From the NCBI RefSeq assembly GCF_030503675.1, contig NZ_CP129964.1:1612001-1676000 (forward strand): a stretch of DNA of 64,000 bases, in the 5' to 3' direction. Each line of letters begins with the position of its first letter. The first letter of the stretch is position 1. The position numbers and the translations under genes were made by a program. A model generated the notes under the pieces. The model did no database searches. It saw nothing but the letters and a program-made list of their open reading frames with translations, and was not told where the DNA came from. This stretch comes from Lutimonas zeaxanthinifaciens (GTDB taxonomy: Bacteria > Bacteroidota > Bacteroidia > Flavobacteriales > Flavobacteriaceae). Positions 37,444 to 45,343 of the stretch are shown piece after piece.

Positions 37444-37725
37444 ATGAGCAAAGAGTCTGATTTTTATGAGAAGCTGAGAAAAAGCCTGACGGAGACAACA
37501 GAGTTCCCCACCAAATACATGTATAAATTTATTATTCCCAGTGAAGATAATAAGTTTAAACAAATTGAAGGGATTTTTGATAATATGGGTGCGGTTATCA
37601 ATTCAAAGCCCTCAAAGACCGGGAAGTATACCAGTCTGACCATATTAGTAAAAATGGAAACTCCGGAAGATGTGATATTGAAATATCAGGAAGTTTCTAA
37701 GGTTGAAGGTGTCATATCTTTGTGA
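37444..37725 (+). CDS. DUF493 family protein (YbeD-like)
   Basis: A 93-residue protein of the DUF493/YbeD family, an ACT-like fold without known function. From ATG 37444 it reads MSKESDFYEKLRKSLTETTE, then FPTKYMYKFIIPSEDNKF, typical family text, and ends with a VEGVISL strand. The frame is open back to 37360 but the extra 28 codons are unlike the family. The gene is divergent from the AAA ATPase and is followed by an 82-base gap before the chaperone operon. Confidence 0.86.
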   Translation: MSKESDFYEKLRKSLTETTEFPTKYMYKFIIPSEDNKFKQIEGIFDNMGAVINSKPSKTGKYTSLTILVKMETPEDVILKYQEVSKVEGVISL

Positions 37726-37807
37726 TATTTTTAACAAACCAATTAAAAAATATAAAATATTTTTGACCGTTTTATTCTACTCAAAAAGTAAGAAGTATCA
37801 ATTTAAA

Positions 37808-39700
37808 ATGAGATTGAACAAGTTTGTCATCATCATTCTTTTATTTGTGTTCAACCCTGTACAGGCCCAGGATGAGGAAAAAATACTTTTTTCCATTGAT
37901 GGAGAAGATGTTTATAATGCCGAGTTCGTAAGAGTCTACGAGAAAAATAAAGATATTGTTGTTGAGGATGAACAGAAGGAATTCGAGGATTATTTCAATC
38001 TATTTGTTGATTTTAAACTTAAATTAAAACAGGCAAGAGAACTTTCTCTGGACACAATCTCTGCGTATATAGACGAGTTAGCCAAATACAGAGAACAGCT
38101 TATCCAGCCTTATTTACAAAACCCTGAAGCCACCGAATCACTTGTTAAAGAGGCCTATGAAAGGACACTTCAGGAAGTTAATGCAAGCCATATATTGGTC
38201 CGTGTAGAGCCCGATGCGATTCCGGCGGATACTTTAAAAGCCTATTTAAAAATCGATGAAGCAAGAGGTAAAATCATCAAAGGAGCTTCCTTTGACAGTA
38301 TTGCCCGAATGTATTCAGAAGATCCATCGGTCAAAACAAATAATGGAAATCTTGGATATTTTTCAGCGTTTTCCATGGTATATTCCTTTGAAAATGCAGC
38401 TTATGAAACCGAAAAAGGTGCTATATCCAAGCCTTTTAGAACAAGATTTGGGTATCATATTTTAAAGATTAATGATAAAAGAGAATCACCGGGCGAAGTT
38501 CAGGTAGCTCATATCATGATCAAAAAGGACAGTACGGTTTTAAAAGACACGAAAGATCAGATTGATCAGATCTATTTAAAACTGCAGCAGGGCGGGGATT
38601 TTGCCGCGATCGCCAAAGAGCAATCCGATGATTATGGATCTGCTCAAAAAGGAGGGCTTTTACCAAAATTTGGAACGGGAAGAATGATAAAGTCTTTTGA
38701 AGATGTTGCTTTCAGTTTAAATGAGGAAGGCGATTTTTCAGAGCCTTTTGAAACACAATATGGATGGCATATTCTAAAACTGTTAAAAAAGTACCCAATT
38801 CCCGAATACGAAGAGCTGTATCCAAAACTGGAGTCCAAAGTAAAGAATGGAAGCAGGTCTTCATATGTGGAACGATCACTTGCGGACCGAATTGTCAGGG
38901 ATTATAAGTACGTTACTTACAAGAATAAATTGCAAAAATATCCTTCTATAAAGGGATTTGAACAAAGTGACGATACTTTACTTCGGATTGAAGAAAAGGT
39001 TTATGTTGGCAGAGATTTTTATCTTTACGCCAAAGATTTAAATCAAAAGACACTGGAAGAAATGTATAGTGATTTTTGTAATAAAATGGTGATTGGTTAT
39101 TACAAGGAAAATCTGGATAAGACAAACAAAGAATTTGCCCTGACCTATCAGGAATATAAGGATGGATTGTTGCTTTTTGAACTATTGCAAAGAGAAGTTT
39201 GGCAGAAATCGGAAACGGATTCAATTGGCCTGCAGACTTTTTTTGAGTCAAACAGAACAAAATATACCTGGAAGAAAAGAGGGAGCCTGGTGATGGCCAG
39301 TTGCACCCGTTTGGAGAAAGCAGAACTTGTCAGGAATCTTTTGAGCCAGGGCGAATCGACGGCTTCAATCAAGGATAAAGTAAATGAGGGAGCAACTATT
39401 CATGTTCTATTCAGTAAAGGTAAGTTGGAGGAAGGAAGTTCAAAATTACCCAAGGGATATACTCTTGAAGAAGGAGTATCAAAGATATATGAAGAGAATG
39501 AGGATGATTTTACAATTATCAGAGTAGATCATCTATTTGGCCCTCAGTGGAAGACATTGAATGAAACCAGGGGAGAAGTAATGAATGATTATCAAAAATA
39601 TCTTGAAGATCAATGGGTTAAGAACTTGCATAAAAAATATCAAGTAAAGATTAACCATAAGAACTATAAGGAACTGAAAAAAAGGTTTAGCGGGATATGA
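37808..39700 (+). CDS. Periplasmic peptidyl-prolyl isomerase with two parvulin domains
   Basis: A 630-residue periplasmic folding factor. The signal peptide is MRLNKFVIIILLFVFNPVQA, a SurA-like helical region runs to about residue 120, and two parvulin domains follow: the first starts NASHILVRVEPDA and ends FGYHILKINDKRE (about 125-235), the second starts VQVAHIMIKKDS and ends YGWHILKLLKKYP (about 240-335). The last 290 residues are helical with no recognised domain. ATG 37808 is chosen because it begins the signal; the frame opens at 37703. It is the first gene of a four-gene operon and its stop overlaps the next start (ATGA). Confidence 0.92.
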   Translation: MRLNKFVIIILLFVFNPVQAQDEEKILFSIDGEDVYNAEFVRVYEKNKDIVVEDEQKEFEDYFNLFVDFKLKLKQARELSLDTISAYIDELAKYREQLIQPYLQNPEATESLVKEAYERTLQEVNASHILVRVEPDAIPADTLKAYLKIDEARGKIIKGASFDSIARMYSEDPSVKTNNGNLGYFSAFSMVYSFENAAYETEKGAISKPFRTRFGYHILKINDKRESPGEVQVAHIMIKKDSTVLKDTKDQIDQIYLKLQQGGDFAAIAKEQSDDYGSAQKGGLLPKFGTGRMIKSFEDVAFSLNEEGDFSEPFETQYGWHILKLLKKYPIPEYEELYPKLESKVKNGSRSSYVERSLADRIVRDYKYVTYKNKLQKYPSIKGFEQSDDTLLRIEEKVYVGRDFYLYAKDLNQKTLEEMYSDFCNKMVIGYYKENLDKTNKEFALTYQEYKDGLLLFELLQREVWQKSETDSIGLQTFFESNRTKYTWKKRGSLVMASCTRLEKAELVRNLLSQGESTASIKDKVNEGATIHVLFSKGKLEEGSSKLPKGYTLEEGVSKIYEENEDDFTIIRVDHLFGPQWKTLNETRGEVMNDYQKYLEDQWVKNLHKKYQVKINHKNYKELKKRFSGI

Positions 39701-40530
39701 GTACAGGCAAATTTCTATTTCTGATCTTACTTATTTTGCTTTCAGGATGCGGAAAGGCGGATCCTGAGGTGGATGCGGTTGCTCGTGTGGGAGAGATTTT
39801 CCTGACAAAACAGGAATTGGACGATGCCATGCCTCAGGGGCTCTCAGAGGAGGATAGTTTACTCTTTAGAAATAATTATATTAAAATGTGGGCCACCAAA
39901 GAATTACTCTTGGATAAGGCGCGGATCAATGTTGAGGATGATGGCGGGGAGATAGAAAATCTGGTAAGAAATTATGAAAAAGAACTTCTTATAGATAAAT
40001 ACAAAAGAGCACTTTTACAACAGGAACTTGACACGCTGATCACGGAGGAAGATATGGATGAATATTATGAGTCCAATAAAAATGTTTATCGTTTAAATGA
40101 GGACCTTATTCAATTAAAATATATTCATTTTAGTAATGATCTTAATGACAAGAAGGAAGTGATACGTCTCTTTAAGTCAAAAGATGAAGAAGATTTGCAA
40201 ACCCTGATCGACAGAGAGTTGGAATTCAATTCATTTTCATTTAATGACAGTATCTGGGTAAGTTTAAAAGATGTCGAAAATAGATTAAGTTTTCTTAGAG
40301 ACGAAAAAAAAATAAAAAAGGATCAATTTATTCAAAAAGAAGATTCATTAGGAGTATATTTGCTGGCTGTTAGGGACATACGTGAGCGAAACAATATCGC
40401 TCCTAAGAATTATGTTCTTCCAACGATCAGGCAAATGATACTGCATAAAAGGAAGTTGGAACTTATGAATGAAATTGAAAAAACATTAATGGTTGATGCG
40501 ATCAACAAAAAACAATTTGAAGCGTATTAA
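39697..40530 (+). CDS. SurA-like periplasmic lipoprotein without a clear parvulin domain
   Basis: A 277-residue lipoprotein. The signal FLFLILLILLSGC ends in a good lipobox with Cys 18. The mature part resembles the N-terminal, substrate-binding helices of SurA/PpiC proteins (VARVGEIFLTKQELDDAMPQ, ITEEDMDEYYESNKNVYRLN) but no parvulin catalytic motif is visible where it should be. It lies between two parvulin proteins in one operon, overlapping the first by four bases, so a chaperone or adaptor role with them is likely. It could be a degenerate isomerase that has kept only client binding. Confidence 0.84.
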   Translation: MSTGKFLFLILLILLSGCGKADPEVDAVARVGEIFLTKQELDDAMPQGLSEEDSLLFRNNYIKMWATKELLLDKARINVEDDGGEIENLVRNYEKELLIDKYKRALLQQELDTLITEEDMDEYYESNKNVYRLNEDLIQLKYIHFSNDLNDKKEVIRLFKSKDEEDLQTLIDRELEFNSFSFNDSIWVSLKDVENRLSFLRDEKKIKKDQFIQKEDSLGVYLLAVRDIRERNNIAPKNYVLPTIRQMILHKRKLELMNEIEKTLMVDAINKKQFEAY

Positions 40531-40531
40531 G

Positions 40532-41878
40532 ATGAAGAGATTTATAGTGATAGCCTTAATGATTTCCTGTATTCAGGTCTTGGCTCAGGAAAAAGTAAAG
40601 ATTGACGGGGTGGCAACGGTTGTTGGAGATAATATTGTTCTGGATTCAGAGATCGATGCTTTTAAGCAGGAATTGATTCAACAAAGCGGGGGGCAGATCG
40701 AGATATCGGATTGTGAAATGCTGGAGCAGATCATGAACAGAAAATTACTTGCTCATCATGCAGTTATCGACAGTATCGTTGTTAATGAAGGGGAAATCCA
40801 GCAACAGGTTCAGCGTAAAACAGATTATTTTAGCCAGCAGCTGGGGTCTCAGGAAAAAATGCTCGAATTATATGGTTTCGATAATCTTAAGGATTTAAAA
40901 GATGAACTTTACAGGGTAGAAAAGGAAGGCCTGTTAATTCAGAAAATGCAACAGCAATTAACTGCTGACATCGATATCACTCCGGAGGAAGTTAAAAGAT
41001 ATTATATTAGTTTGGAGGAAGAAGGTAACCTACCTGAAATTGGGGCAGAAATAGAACTCTCTCAGATTGTATTGAACGTTGAACCTTCTGAGGAAGCAGT
41101 AGAGAAAACCATTGCGAGACTGAAGGAAATCAAGAAGGAAGTTGAAGACGGAGGCAATTTCAAAATGAAGGCGATCTTGTATTCAGATGACCCGGGAGTA
41201 ACGCAGAACAGTGGTTTTTATTCAATTGAAAGAAACAGCCCCTTTGTAAAGGAATTTAAAGAAACTGCTTTTAGCCTGGAGGAGGGAGAGATTTCACAAC
41301 CTTTTAAATCTGATTTTGGGTATCATATCATGTTATGTGAAAAAATTAAAGGAAAGCAAAGAGATGTATATCACATTTTAATGCAGCCAAAACCAGATGA
41401 GGATGAAGGAGAAAAGGTAAGAGATTCTTTGATCAAGTACAGGCAGCAGATTTTAAAAATGGAAGTTCCTTTTGAAGAAGCGGTTTTAAGATATTCTCAG
41501 GATAAGGATACCCGGTTAAGTGGAGGCGTTCTTATGAATCCTGAATCAGGGGATACACATTTTGACCTGACAAGAATGGATCCTGATCTTTATGCCAAAG
41601 TAAGCAGTTTAAAAGAAGGAGAAATCAGTGATGTTTTTCTGGATGAAACCCCTCAGGGATTAAAAATGTATAAAATACTTTTGTTGAAGAGCAGAACAGA
41701 AAGCCATACAGCAGATCTTGTTCAGGATTATGTAAAGATCATGGATCTGGCACTTCAAAAAAAGAAAACAGAATCTATTGAGAAGTGGTCCGAAGAGAAA
41801 ATTCAGGATACCTACGTGAATATTAATGATTTTTATTCAAAATGTGAATTCAAAAGTAACTGGAGTAAAAGCCAATAA
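40532..41878 (+). CDS. surA: SurA-type periplasmic chaperone/peptidyl-prolyl isomerase
   Basis: A 448-residue SurA homologue that escorts outer-membrane proteins. The signal is MKRFIVIALMISCIQVLAQ; the SurA N-terminal chaperone module follows (DGVATVVGDNIVLDSEIDAF, residues 25-150). Parvulin domain 1 runs from IELSQIVLNVEPSEE to FGYHIMLCEKIKG (about 170-275), and domain 2 from YHILMQPKPDE to about 390. The start is ATG 40532, just after the previous stop; the frame opens at 40493 inside the neighbour. It is the third gene of the operon and leads into moxR with 2 bases between them. Confidence 0.93.
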   Translation: MKRFIVIALMISCIQVLAQEKVKIDGVATVVGDNIVLDSEIDAFKQELIQQSGGQIEISDCEMLEQIMNRKLLAHHAVIDSIVVNEGEIQQQVQRKTDYFSQQLGSQEKMLELYGFDNLKDLKDELYRVEKEGLLIQKMQQQLTADIDITPEEVKRYYISLEEEGNLPEIGAEIELSQIVLNVEPSEEAVEKTIARLKEIKKEVEDGGNFKMKAILYSDDPGVTQNSGFYSIERNSPFVKEFKETAFSLEEGEISQPFKSDFGYHIMLCEKIKGKQRDVYHILMQPKPDEDEGEKVRDSLIKYRQQILKMEVPFEEAVLRYSQDKDTRLSGGVLMNPESGDTHFDLTRMDPDLYAKVSSLKEGEISDVFLDETPQGLKMYKILLLKSRTESHTADLVQDYVKIMDLALQKKKTESIEKWSEEKIQDTYVNINDFYSKCEFKSNWSKSQ

Positions 41879-41880
41879 AT

Positions 41881-42834
41881 ATGTCTGACGTTGCTAAAAT
41901 TGATAACCTTGTAAAGAGCTATTCCCTTTTAAAGGATGAAATAGGAAAGGTGATCATTGGGCAACATGATGCCGTTAACCATGTTTTACTATCGGTTTTA
42001 TGTGGTGGCCACTCTTTGTTAATTGGGGTTCCGGGATTAGCAAAAACGTTATTGGTCAACACGGTGGCCCAGGCACTGGGGCTAAATTTTAAAAGAATAC
42101 AGTTTACACCGGACCTCATGCCTTCGGATATATTAGGAAGTGAAATATTGGATGAGAGCAGGCATTTCAAATTTGTAAAAGGGCCTGTATTTGCCAATAT
42201 AATACTGGCAGATGAAATTAACAGGACACCTCCCAAAACCCAGGCAGCGCTTTTGGAAGCCATGCAGGAAAAATCAGTAACCGTTGCAGGTCAGAGTTTT
42301 GACCTTGATCTTCCGTTTTTTGTATTGGCCACCCAAAACCCTATCGAACAGGAAGGTACCTATCCGCTCCCGGAAGCTCAACTCGACAGATTTATGTTCT
42401 CCATATATCTCGATTACCCATCTTTTGAAGAAGAGGTATTTGTGGCGAAGAACACTACTAACGACGAAAATTCAATAATCAAACCGGTATTCTCCAAGAG
42501 AGATATTATTGATTATCAGCATTTGATCAGAAGAATTCCGATAGCTGATAATGTGGTAGAATACGCGGTAAGGGTTGCATCCCGAACTAGACCAAATAAG
42601 GAAGGGGCTCCGGATATTGTGAAATCATATATTGACTGGGGAGCAGGCCCCAGAGCTTCACAAAACCTGGTGCTTGGAGCAAAGGCCTATGCCGCTATCC
42701 ATGGAAAATACTCTCCTGATATTGCGGATGTGCAAGCTGTGGCACACGGAATTCTGCATCACAGGATCGTGAAAAATTACAAGGCTGAGGCTGAAGGCAT
42801 TTCAGAAACTCAGATTATCAATGCTATTCTTTAG
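41881..42834 (+). CDS. MoxR-family AAA+ ATPase
   Basis: A 317-residue MoxR-type AAA+ ATPase, thought to act as a chaperone that matures or assembles partner complexes, often with VWA or DUF58 proteins. Walker A is GVPGLAKTLLVNTVAQ (near residue 45), Walker B ILADEINRTPPKTQAALLEA, sensor 1 ATQNPIEQEGTYPLPEAQLD with the arginine-finger region following. It ends the surA operon. The DUF58 and VWA partners often encoded next to moxR are not here; the next gene, 218 bases on, is rpsA with its own promoter. Confidence 0.94.
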   Translation: MSDVAKIDNLVKSYSLLKDEIGKVIIGQHDAVNHVLLSVLCGGHSLLIGVPGLAKTLLVNTVAQALGLNFKRIQFTPDLMPSDILGSEILDESRHFKFVKGPVFANIILADEINRTPPKTQAALLEAMQEKSVTVAGQSFDLDLPFFVLATQNPIEQEGTYPLPEAQLDRFMFSIYLDYPSFEEEVFVAKNTTNDENSIIKPVFSKRDIIDYQHLIRRIPIADNVVEYAVRVASRTRPNKEGAPDIVKSYIDWGAGPRASQNLVLGAKAYAAIHGKYSPDIADVQAVAHGILHHRIVKNYKAEAEGISETQIINAIL

Positions 42835-42901: not shown

Positions 42902-42933
42902 TTTGTATAAACAATAATTTGTTTGTATATTTG
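42902..42933 (+). promoter_or_regulatory. Bacteroidota-type promoter of rpsA
   Basis: TTTG at 42902-42905, 20 bases, then TATATTTG at 42926-42933: an exact fit to TTTG-N19/20-TAnnTTTG. It predicts a transcript start near 42940 and a leader of about 110 bases ahead of rpsA. Confidence 0.8.
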
Positions 42934-42937
42934 CACG

Positions 42938-42968
42938 CCTTTTGAACGAAAATCAGATTATCAAAAGG
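42938..42968 (+). promoter_or_regulatory. Inverted repeat at the 5' end of the rpsA leader
   Basis: CCTTTTGA (42938-42945) pairs perfectly with TCAAAAGG (42961-42968) around a 15-base loop. With the start site predicted near 42940, this hairpin would be at the extreme 5' end of the rpsA mRNA. It has no T-run and is not a terminator. A regulatory or stabilising role is only inferred. Confidence 0.45.
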
Positions 42969-43052
42969 TGAAGCGAAATAAGTATTCATTTCTCTTTGCG
43001 TTCTAATCGTTTAAAAATCTGAAGAACAAAAAGATACAAGGTATAAGACATT

Positions 43053-45278
43053 ATGTCGAAACTACAGGAAAAAATTGAACTATACACTGGCGCTGCCGAA
43101 AAGCTGGGTATAAAATTAGATGCGGATCTCTTTAAATTAGTAACTAAAGGACTTGGTCCTTCAATCTACAAAGAAGACGCAGAATTGGTTTCATCATCAA
43201 ACAAAGATGAACTTGAAACTATCAAAAAGAACTTCCTTATTAAAAAACTGGGACTTGAAGCAAACGACGAAGTGCTTGATGCTGCGATCGCTAAAGCGAT
43301 TGAAACATTAGGATCGAGCAATAAGAAAAAATATCGTGCGCTTTTTTACTATTTATTAGTGAAAGAAACAGGTTCAGAATCTTTTTACGAAGCTGATAAA
43401 GAGGCTCCGGCAAAGGAAGAGAAGGAAGTAAAATCGGAAAAAGTTAAAGAAGAAGTTGCAAAACCAAAAAAAGAAGAAGAGTTGGAAGAAAAAGTAGCAG
43501 AAAAAGCTGTAGTAGTTGCTGAGCAGGCTGAACCAAAAGTAGATGCAGGAAAGTTCCTTGAAGAATTTGACTGGCAGAAATACGAAGAAGGAATTGAAGC
43601 CATTGATCAGAAAAAATTAGATGAATTTGACAGTGCCCTTGAAAATACAGTAGGGTTTGTTGAAGAGCGTCAGGTTATTGATGGTGTCGTTGTAAGACTT
43701 ACAGACCGTGAGGCCATCATCGATATCAATTCAAAGTCTGAAGGTGTTATTTCATTAAACGAATTCAGATATAACCCTAACCTAAAGGTTGGTGATACCG
43801 TAGAGGTAAAGGTTGACAAGTTAGAAGATAACACGGGTCAATTGGTCTTATCTCACAGAAAGGCAAGAGTAATCAAGGCCTGGGAGAGAGTAAACAGAGC
43901 TCATGAAACTCAGGAAATCGTTACAGGTTACGTAAAATGTAGAACAAAAGGAGGTATGATTGTTGACGTATTCGGTATCGAAGCCTTCTTGCCAGGTTCT
44001 CAAATTGACGTTAAGCCAATTAGAGATTACGATCAGTTTGTAGACAAAAATATGGAGTTCAAGGTTGTTAAGATCAACCATGAGTTCAAAAACATTGTTG
44101 TTTCTCACAAAGCGCTTATTGAAGCGGATCTTGCAGAGCAGAAGAAAGAAATCATTGGACAATTAGAAAAAGGACAGGTACTTGAAGGTGTTGTGAAGAA
44201 CATTACTTCTTATGGTGTATTTGTTGACCTTGGAGGTGTTGACGGATTGGTGCACATTACAGATCTTTCTTGGAGCAGAATTAATCACCCGAGTGAAATT
44301 GTAGAATTGGATCAAAAACTGAATGTTGTAATCCTTGACTTTGACGATGAGAAGACAAGAATTCAACTTGGATTGAAACAATTGAGCAAACATCCATGGG
44401 AAGCATTGGATGAAAACCTTAAAGTTGGTGATAAGGTAAAAGGTAAAGTTGCGATCATAGCTGATTATGGTGCATTTATCGAGGTAAGTGAAGGTGTTGA
44501 AGGATTGATTCACGTTTCTGAAATGTCTTGGTCAACTCACTTGAGATCGGCTCAGGATTTTGTAAAGGTAGGAGACGTTGTTGAGGCTGTTATTCTTACA
44601 CTTGACAGAGACGAAAGAAAGATGTCTTTAGGGATCAAGCAATTGCAACCGGACCCATGGACAGATATTACAACAAAATACCCAGTTGGTTCAAAGCACA
44701 CTGGAACCGTAAGAAATTATACTAATTTTGGAGTATTTGTTGAATTGGAAGAAGGAATTGACGGATTGGTTTACATTTCTGATCTATCATGGACTAAGAA
44801 GATCAAGCACCCATCTGACTTTGTAAAAGTTGGTGACAAGCTGGATGTAGAAGTTCTTGAATTGGATGTTGAAGGACGTAAATTAAACCTTGGTCATAAA
44901 CAAACTACTGAGAATCCTTGGGATAAGCACGAAGAAACTTACACTATTGATTCTGTTCATTCAGGAACAATCAAAGAGGTAAATGACAAGGGTGCTATTG
45001 TTACTTTTGAAGATGGAGTTGAGGCTTTTGTACCTGGACGTCATATGGAGAAAGAAGACAGATCTAAATTGGTAAAAGGAGATGCTGCTGAATTCAAAGT
45101 ATTGGAATTCAACAAAGAGTACAGAAGATTAGTAGTTTCTCACTCAGCCATATTCAGAGCACAGGAAGAAAGAAATATCAAGGCCGCGAACAAGCAGTCT
45201 GAACAAGCTGAAAAAACTACTTTAGGAGATATTTCAGGTCTCGCTGATCTTAAGAAAAAAATGGAATCTGGTAAGTAA
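43053..45278 (+). CDS. rpsA: Ribosomal protein bS1 with an N-terminal DUF2853 domain
   Basis: bS1 binds mRNA to the 30S subunit. The 741-residue product is about 150 longer than usual flavobacterial S1 (about 590). Residues 1-113 match the small stand-alone DUF2853 family: VTKGLGPSIYKEDAELVSSS, ELETIKKNFLIKKLGL, GSSNKKKYRALFYYLLVKE. Residues 114-165 are a Lys/Glu-rich linker. Standard S1 starts at about 167 (FLEEFDWQKYEEGIEAIDQK) and has six S1 (OB) domains near 207-270, 289-353, 374-442, 460-528, 547-615 and 634-699. The frame is unbroken and codon use does not change at the join. Own promoter upstream; strong terminator downstream. Confidence 0.95.
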   Translation: MSKLQEKIELYTGAAEKLGIKLDADLFKLVTKGLGPSIYKEDAELVSSSNKDELETIKKNFLIKKLGLEANDEVLDAAIAKAIETLGSSNKKKYRALFYYLLVKETGSESFYEADKEAPAKEEKEVKSEKVKEEVAKPKKEEELEEKVAEKAVVVAEQAEPKVDAGKFLEEFDWQKYEEGIEAIDQKKLDEFDSALENTVGFVEERQVIDGVVVRLTDREAIIDINSKSEGVISLNEFRYNPNLKVGDTVEVKVDKLEDNTGQLVLSHRKARVIKAWERVNRAHETQEIVTGYVKCRTKGGMIVDVFGIEAFLPGSQIDVKPIRDYDQFVDKNMEFKVVKINHEFKNIVVSHKALIEADLAEQKKEIIGQLEKGQVLEGVVKNITSYGVFVDLGGVDGLVHITDLSWSRINHPSEIVELDQKLNVVILDFDDEKTRIQLGLKQLSKHPWEALDENLKVGDKVKGKVAIIADYGAFIEVSEGVEGLIHVSEMSWSTHLRSAQDFVKVGDVVEAVILTLDRDERKMSLGIKQLQPDPWTDITTKYPVGSKHTGTVRNYTNFGVFVELEEGIDGLVYISDLSWTKKIKHPSDFVKVGDKLDVEVLELDVEGRKLNLGHKQTTENPWDKHEETYTIDSVHSGTIKEVNDKGAIVTFEDGVEAFVPGRHMEKEDRSKLVKGDAAEFKVLEFNKEYRRLVVSHSAIFRAQEERNIKAANKQSEQAEKTTLGDISGLADLKKKMESGK

Positions 45279-45300: not shown

Positions 45301-45343
45301 AAACCGTTCTTGTTTTGCCCGGCAAAATTTGAACGGTTTTTTT
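45301..45343 (+). terminator. Strong intrinsic terminator of rpsA
   Basis: A long two-part hairpin: AAACCGTTC (45301-45309) with GAACGGTTT at the outer part and TTTTGCC with GGCAAAA inside, closed by a single C, followed by a T-run. It ends the rpsA transcript before the glmM promoter. Confidence 0.93.

Follow-up and report, generated by a model that had tools for sequence, protein, structure and literature searches.

Architecture and integrity of the fusion gene

The gene for ribosomal protein bS1 (rpsA) of Lutimonas zeaxanthinifaciens carries, in front of an S1 body of the usual type, an entire DUF2853 domain joined to it by a disordered linker, and this fusion is genuine: a variant of bS1 that is restricted to a lineage and under constraint. 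The gene lies at 43053..45278 (+) of the window, i.e., the whole stretch of 64,000 nucleotides (nt) analysed here (contig NZ_CP129964.1, positions 1,612,001 to 1,676,000), and encodes 741 amino acids (aa) from an ATG start, with 0 internal stops. An initial annotation, made from the letters alone, had read residues 1–113 as DUF2853, followed by a Lys/Glu-rich linker and a six-domain flavobacterial S1 from about residue 167, all in one unbroken frame. This reading held in each part, and both borders were right within a few residues.

In a Pfam profile search with residues 1–120, PF11015 (DUF2853) matched residues 15–109 at E 7.9e-33 (113.5 bits against a cut-off of 25; profile positions 7–100 of 101), a significant match whose absence was to have counted against the annotation. 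The domain comprises residues 1–112 (43053..43388, +), the linker residues 113–164 (43389..43544, +), and the bS1 body residues 165–739 (43545..45269, +), with N-terminal helices followed by six S1 (OB) domains. The linker is Lys/Glu-rich and predicted to be disordered, with a predicted local distance difference test (pLDDT) score of < 50 over residues 115–161. Residues 165–739 matched the NCBIfam model NF004953 (30S ribosomal protein S1; 915.5 bits against a cut-off of 720), and six PF00575 S1 stretches were found in Pfam (E 7.2e-75). The F-[DN]-W..Y..G stretch that precedes S1 domain 1 (the FDW motif) is kept in fused genes, except in one locus of another S1 type (L133, described below). With a full-length match above the curated cut-off, six S1 repeats and no other S1 in the genome, the body belongs to bS1; the N-terminal part belongs to DUF2853 by a score above the gathering cut-off over almost the whole profile and by the fold of the solved member. 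DUF2853 is described as a small stand-alone protein, which a 741-aa fusion is not, and the membership of the domain itself stands. Stand-alone copies have about 111–117 residues and end approximately where the fused linker starts, so that a whole stand-alone DUF2853 is contained in the fusion.

By sequence, the sole relative of the N-terminal domain in the PDB was 2pyq (DUF2853; residues 14–112, E 1.3e-24), and the chain closest to the S1 body was 9zcd_A (residues 165–739, E 3.2e-292), for which no accompanying paper was found in the literature listing. The genome of the window contained one DUF2853 match, the fusion itself, and one S1 match; the nearest S1 core was that of L. saemankumensis (99% identical). 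That the DUF2853–linker–bS1 architecture is real is practically certain.

Distribution of the fusion

The survey for this architecture that the initial annotation had proposed found it in many genomes. Species-representative genomes were searched with the fused domain, and the best 80 loci of 211 relatives were kept: 55 were fused to S1, 4 were cut in the linker, 1 was cut too early to tell and 20 were stand-alone. Named carriers included Lutimonas saemankumensis, L. halocynthiae, three Aureibaculum species and Urechidicola metagenome-assembled genomes (MAGs). These loci and the genomes counted below share species (e.g., G857 = G119 and G848 = G047, at identical places), and the counts are not additive.

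Among same-genus genomes, S1 was found in 19 of 22, and the three without it are 70, 70 and 83% complete. Sixteen of the 19 carry the fusion, and in the other 3 the contig stops within the linker; an S1 both intact and unfused was not encountered. DUF2853 and S1 lie on one open reading frame in 14 of the 19 (including G201, whose S1 body then breaks) and share one open frame by coordinates in G200 and G212, while in G207, G213 and G214 the DUF2853 frame is open into the linker at the contig end and the S1 body is on another contig. The fused rpsA of the G201 MAG (L069; G201:C1:2298966-2300689) is split by a frame break in the S1 body, with two TGA codons read through, possibly an assembly error. 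In five of six good genus genomes, the fused copy was the only DUF2853 found.

Within the family, DUF2853 was present in 131 of 199 genomes and fused in 8 of those 131, namely G000, G025, G058, G113, G116, G119 and G186 (frames > 700) and G146, which is cut at 379. S1 was found in 193 of the 199, with one match each, and 19 of the 20 genomes behind the examined loci likewise had one S1 match. Long frames in G086 and G654 were rejected as fusions, since they represent an upstream open frame only. A viral carrier was also rejected, none of 506 pattern stretches in viral contigs being a relative; plasmids and phages were not searched.

Constraint, fold and charge of the DUF2853 domain

Ratios of nonsynonymous to synonymous substitution rates (dN/dS) in eight overlapping pairs were 0.035–0.20 for DUF2853, 0.07–0.52 for the linker and 0.009–0.055 for S1 domains 2–6; the pairs share sequences, dS exceeds 1 in several, 3 of the 8 values for the stretch 166–280 were not computable, and the ranges carry no formal test. 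The DUF2853 part is under constraint, if less so than S1. Residues E53, K93, R95 and Y99 did not vary among the 59 sequences aligned, fused and stand-alone.

The structure prediction that the initial annotation had called for returned a confident domain. The AlphaFold2 (AF2) model of DUF2853 had a pLDDT of 95.3 and superposed on 2pyq with Z 18.9 and a root-mean-square deviation of 1.7 over 112 aligned residues (48% identity). Other rows of the fold search were mostly weak EF-hand, S100 or calmodulin matches; the best, Z 4.9 over 79 residues, is in the range that the search tool rates as possibly a mere common arrangement, and by inspection the domain loops lack the acidic pattern. In the full-length AF2 model, the linker (115–161) was disordered and the predicted template modelling score was 0.37; no fixed docking of DUF2853 on S1 is therefore predicted. 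In 49 fused genes, the linker measured 42–134 residues (median 73), and K, E, A, V, P, T, D and Q made up a median of 94% of it.

Fused domains had a median isoelectric point (pI) of 6.3 (range 4.8–9.2, n = 53). For stand-alone copies, the median was 8.57 in the main family (n = 30), and the values were 7.7–9.5 in Lutibacter (n = 7) and 6.6–9.3 in Campylobacterota (n = 7). This charge shift would speak against RNA binding by the fused domain, with the reservation that the pI ranges overlap.

In the fused group, some second copies have diverged strongly (L038, L061, L063, L066 and L067; 36–47% identity to the window domain). Four of them, L038, L063, L066 and L067, which are stand-alone and come from genus and family genomes, form a paralogue group (support 100) that has lost the GPSIY motif and kept the four invariant residues.

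Evolutionary history

Trees of DUF2853 required two or three state changes for the fused domains. A single clade of fused DUF2853 appeared in 0 of 200 bootstrap trees and was not rejected by the approximately unbiased (AU) test (p-AU 0.446), the 113 columns being poorly resolved; this tree held 102 of 127 rows, 5 named rows and 20 removed by thinning having been dropped. In the larger S1-body tree, most fused rows fell in one clade (100/100) that also held non-fused lineages including Lutibacter, and the fused L117 and L122 stood outside it, in a tree whose bootstrap had not settled. A smaller rooted S1 tree placed L117 as basal (97/83) and L122 as sister to the main non-fused clade (99/99), a placement that lost resolution with more rows. 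The AU test rejected a clade that united all fused S1 cores with Lutibacter and excluded all other non-fused cores (p-AU 0.005). When this clade was widened by the nested non-fused lineages, with L117 and L122, it was not rejected (p-AU 0.165), and one gain with several losses therefore fits the Flavobacteriaceae data; recombination is an alternative. The larger tree and its AU test did not include L251 and L252. The first S1-core tree held 28 of the 30 family loci L148–L177 and was built without L133 and L194, in which the motif is absent, and without L191, L193, L195 and L196.

Seven Lutibacter genomes (five isolates and two MAGs) each contained one stand-alone DUF2853. The N-terminus of their S1 was visible in six and unfused; in L. 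litoralis, the match begins too far in to tell. Core Lutibacter adjoined L088, a fused Lutibacter-labelled MAG, with support of 99 in the first S1-core tree and 100/100 in the smaller rooted tree. Five of the six Lutibacter S1 proteins have 68–141 residues before the FDW motif, compared with 14–48 in 28 other non-fused S1 proteins; in L182, L184, L185, L189 and L192, this unusually long N-terminal linker is Lys/Glu-rich and there is no DUF2853. The S1 of core Lutibacter has probably lost its DUF2853 domain, with the tether remaining. Against this, long N-terminal linkers without DUF2853 occur in other families too (e.g., L230, L232 and L241), and L088 could instead have gained the domain.

A mosaic rpsA was found at L133:4578-6848 (+). 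Its DUF2853 groups with fused flavobacterial copies (support 96) and its S1 body with Saprospiraceae and Chitinophagales S1. The leader aligns with those of fused flavobacterial genes; L133 is among the covariance model's own rows, and its hit to the model is therefore no test. Its gene neighbourhood has no match to that of the window, and caution is due because L133 is a MAG contig.

Promoter, terminator and rpsA leader RNA

The initial annotation had also assigned the gene its own promoter and terminator. The box TATATTTG (42926..42933, +) starts 127 nt before the ATG and fits TAnnTTTG, the consensus of the Bacteroidota-type −7 box. Of 58 genes that are fused or cut in the linker, 57, among them the window gene, have such a box between −123 and −131. 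A terminator-like stem-loop followed by a T run is present at 45301..45339 (+; minimum free energy −18.2 kcal/mol, z −3.98); it was missing from the list produced by a plain promoter and terminator scan, which was uninformative.

Between the promoter box and the start codon lies a structured leader RNA (42935..43055, +; 100.4 bits with the covariance model R1) with two hairpins and two loop–loop pairings. The model ends on the ATG, the 5' untranslated region being 42935–43052, and the window itself was among the rows from which the model was built. Hairpin P1 (arms 42938–42945 and 42961–42968, +) has 8 pairs, 6 with both-side changes (80.6% of cells paired), and P2 (arms 42993–43003 and 43024–43034, +) has 11, of which 9 have both-side changes (85.6%). 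One loop pairing joins 42954–42959 (CAGATT) with 43016–43021 (AATCTG) on the + strand (6 pairs, 5 with both-side changes, 98.3%), and the second joins 42946–42950 with 43007–43011 (+; 4 pairs counted, all 4 with both-side changes, 78.1%). Over the 40 leaders compared (38 of fused genes and 2 of linker-cut genes), 85.8% of cells were paired, and both-side changes occurred in 24 of 29 pairs against a shuffled mean of 13.1; 0 of 500 shuffles attained the figures found for the leaders. Slid structures were 43–51% paired, a control that flatters the leader structure because the structure was derived from these same sequences.

The leader was also found outside the fused genes. A model without the loop pairings matched all 30 non-fused family loci and all 6 Lutibacter loci (E up to 0.011), with no match at L191, L193, L194 and L196. 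In the 30 non-fused leaders, loop complementarity averaged 15.8, and 10.95 for the second pairing, exceeding the maxima of 200 cross-paired shuffles (13.9 and 9.8). Under stricter filters, 102 of 199 family genomes matched once each and 97 gave no match at E 0.01. All 95 matches with an S1 coordinate preceded the S1 match by 12–547 nt on the same strand; four more lay directly before fused DUF2853 starts (G058, G113, G146 and G186), and three were unplaced. Another 29 loci, including other families of the order, gave 16 matches (E up to 0.01), among which L243 repeats L189 and placement relative to S1 is unchecked. The leader is a feature of rpsA in general and not of the DUF2853 fusion.

A scan of the window with Rfam 15 gave one tRNA at gathering and nothing credible on the leader. 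No S1 leader is among the 20 ribosomal-protein leader (r-leader) candidates in Table 1 of PMC7247131, and the literature listings contained no S1 leader RNA in Bacteroidota; S1 autoregulation is reviewed for γ-proteobacteria in PMC10931766. The structure is conserved, covaries and sits just upstream of a ribosomal protein gene, as is expected of an r-leader, and is a candidate S1 autoregulatory r-leader.

Directly upstream of rpsA, 37703–42834 of the window holds two PpiC-type isomerase genes with a Pfam-unmatched gene between them and a MoxR-type AAA gene. Homologues of each occurred in 18–21 of the 55 fused loci, many of which are short contigs, and gene order was compared in L122 only.

Possible role of the fusion and alternative explanations

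In E. coli, the N-terminal part of S1 is anchored at uS2 on the back of the 30S subunit, and Bacteroidota initiate translation without Shine–Dalgarno pairing. We propose that the only bS1 of this genome, extended N-terminally by a whole DUF2853 protein on a flexible tether, would keep DUF2853 close to the mRNA-exit platform as a mobile domain, in the same stoichiometry as S1; the position near uS2 is suggested by analogy with the anchoring of S1. There, the domain would carry out a job linked to translation or to S1. Its binding partner would most likely be a protein and not RNA, because the net positive charge that typifies the stand-alone relatives has been lost from the fused copies. The near-neutral charge and the weak EF-hand-like hint both point to such a partner. 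In Lutimonas, the fused domain may also supply the cell's only DUF2853 function: as the sole DUF2853 in most good genus genomes, it would have to cover any general need for the protein. We estimate the probability of this whole chain at about 0.42. According to PMC10931766 and PMC11800381, bS1 binds the 30S subunit via domains 1–2, chiefly through uS2, and its C-terminal domains take up mRNA. For Flavobacterium johnsoniae, PMC9976891 reports that bS1 is sub-stoichiometric in purified ribosomes and that added bS1 doubled the initiation amplitude on one mRNA lacking a Shine–Dalgarno sequence.

Persistence in many species, low dN/dS, occurrence on more than one S1 core and the status of sole DUF2853 copy make a role at the ribosome or with S1 plausible. 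Several observations weigh against it. The fusion occurs in just 8 of 199 family genomes and is absent from core Lutibacter, and it is therefore not essential to S1; most Flavobacteriaceae with DUF2853 have it as a separate gene. A second, stand-alone DUF2853 was present in six of eight fused genomes checked. The DUF2853 part evolves faster than S1 domains 2–6. The wide pI range of the fused copies is overlapped by stand-alone copies of Campylobacterota, and the near-neutral fused domain, compared with mostly basic stand-alone copies, may have changed its role. In genome G396, from another family of Flavobacteriales, DUF2853 forms the C-terminus of a PF04185 phosphoesterase (L051:5630-7552, −). 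Finally, the neighbourhoods of 19 of the 20 stand-alone loci were mapped, and 19 neighbours were scanned in Pfam together with a twentieth protein, the L051 fusion. Some neighbours turned up repeatedly inside one group, but no neighbour recurred in different groups. Among others, Lutibacter showed DnaK and serine dehydratase; HerA and S24 repressors each occurred in two Campylobacterota MAGs, and a DEAD helicase in one.

The strongest competing explanation, less probable than not, is that DUF2853 has a function unrelated to translation and that S1 only lends it expression, providing abundance, solubility and S1-linked control, with no work on the ribosome. The phosphoesterase fusion, the diverse stand-alone neighbours, the separate genes of core Lutibacter and the long flexible tether all suit such coupling. 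It accounts less readily for DUF2853 on more than one S1 core, including the other S1 type in L133, and for the charge shift of the fused copies, both of which suggest adaptation to the S1 setting. Considerably less probable is the production of two proteins from one gene, through cleavage of the linker or an internal start at TTG144, leaving S1 mixed or mostly unfused. The in-frame start codons after the first ATG are TTG45, GTG74, GTG103, TTG144 and TTG264. TTG144 falls within the linker, a disordered stretch prone to proteases, and the region from residue 101 to the FDW motif contains an in-frame ATG in 9 of 50 fused genes. Against this explanation, the other 41 have none there, the window gene has no in-frame ATG between codons 2 and 301 (the next is codon 302), and both the conserved promoter box and the leader precede codon 1.

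Less likely again is a neutral passenger, i.e., a chance fusion retained by drift. The patchy distribution with apparent loss and the faster evolution of the domain would agree with it, as opposed to a dN/dS of < 0.2 in 8 of 8 (overlapping, not formally tested) pairs, the retention of the invariant residues and the fused state of 55 of the best 80 loci. The chance that the fusion is a sequencing, assembly or gene-calling artefact is negligible: nothing was found in its favour beyond the broken frame of the G201 MAG copy, and the recurrence of the same architecture in isolates and MAGs refutes it in practice. Synonymous changes, which accumulate to either side of the joint without closing the frame, also speak against it. 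Assembly in particular is ruled out by the same joint in many records.

Action of a tethered DUF2853 at the ribosome is, at this stage, a good testable hypothesis. The initial annotation had gone further, taking the fusion as a 'Rosetta stone' hint for the whole family; the architecture, its integrity and its conservation are supported, and a ribosome or mRNA role for the family at large is only suggested, more weakly than claimed. In its most extended form, DUF2853 would be a ribosome- or mRNA-associated family and, in this lineage, a permanent mobile subunit of the 30S particle that serves as an extra docking or regulatory module by the platform under the control of a hitherto undescribed S1 leader RNA, which we regard as unlikely.

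Significance and comparison with known systems

DUF2853 has a crystal structure and almost no literature: in PMC3595295, a Bartonella quintana member appears in a table of temperature-responsive unannotated genes. Literature listings on PF11015, 2PYQ, S1 fusions and Flavobacterium S1 contained nothing on a DUF2853–S1 fusion, and an automatic database annotation of the architecture may already exist. A constrained natural fusion to a single-copy ribosomal protein offers a concrete place to look for the function of DUF2853. Within one family, some members should have ribosomes set apart by an entire additional domain attached to S1, in a phylum that does not rely on Shine–Dalgarno pairing. If the leader RNA is the S1 operator, it would define a new class of r-leader and offer a way into S1 homeostasis beyond the γ-proteobacteria.

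Compared with other Flavobacteriaceae bS1 (NF004953; 9zcd_A), the fusion shares the six S1 domains, the F-[DN]-W..Y..G helices, the single copy and the same leader RNA, whereas the 28 measured S1 proteins have 14–48 residues before the FDW motif and no DUF2853. With stand-alone DUF2853 (PF11015; 2pyq, Jann_4075), it has in common almost the full-length sequence, the fold and the invariant residues, although those proteins are separate genes of about 111–117 aa and usually basic. The PF04185 phosphoesterase–DUF2853 protein of G396 is likewise a natural DUF2853 fusion, but with another partner, at the other protein end and in another family of the order. The HMBPP reductase–S1 fusion (NF000907), going by the name of the model, also joins S1 repeats to an unrelated N-terminal protein, but this partner is a different one and unrelated to DUF2853.

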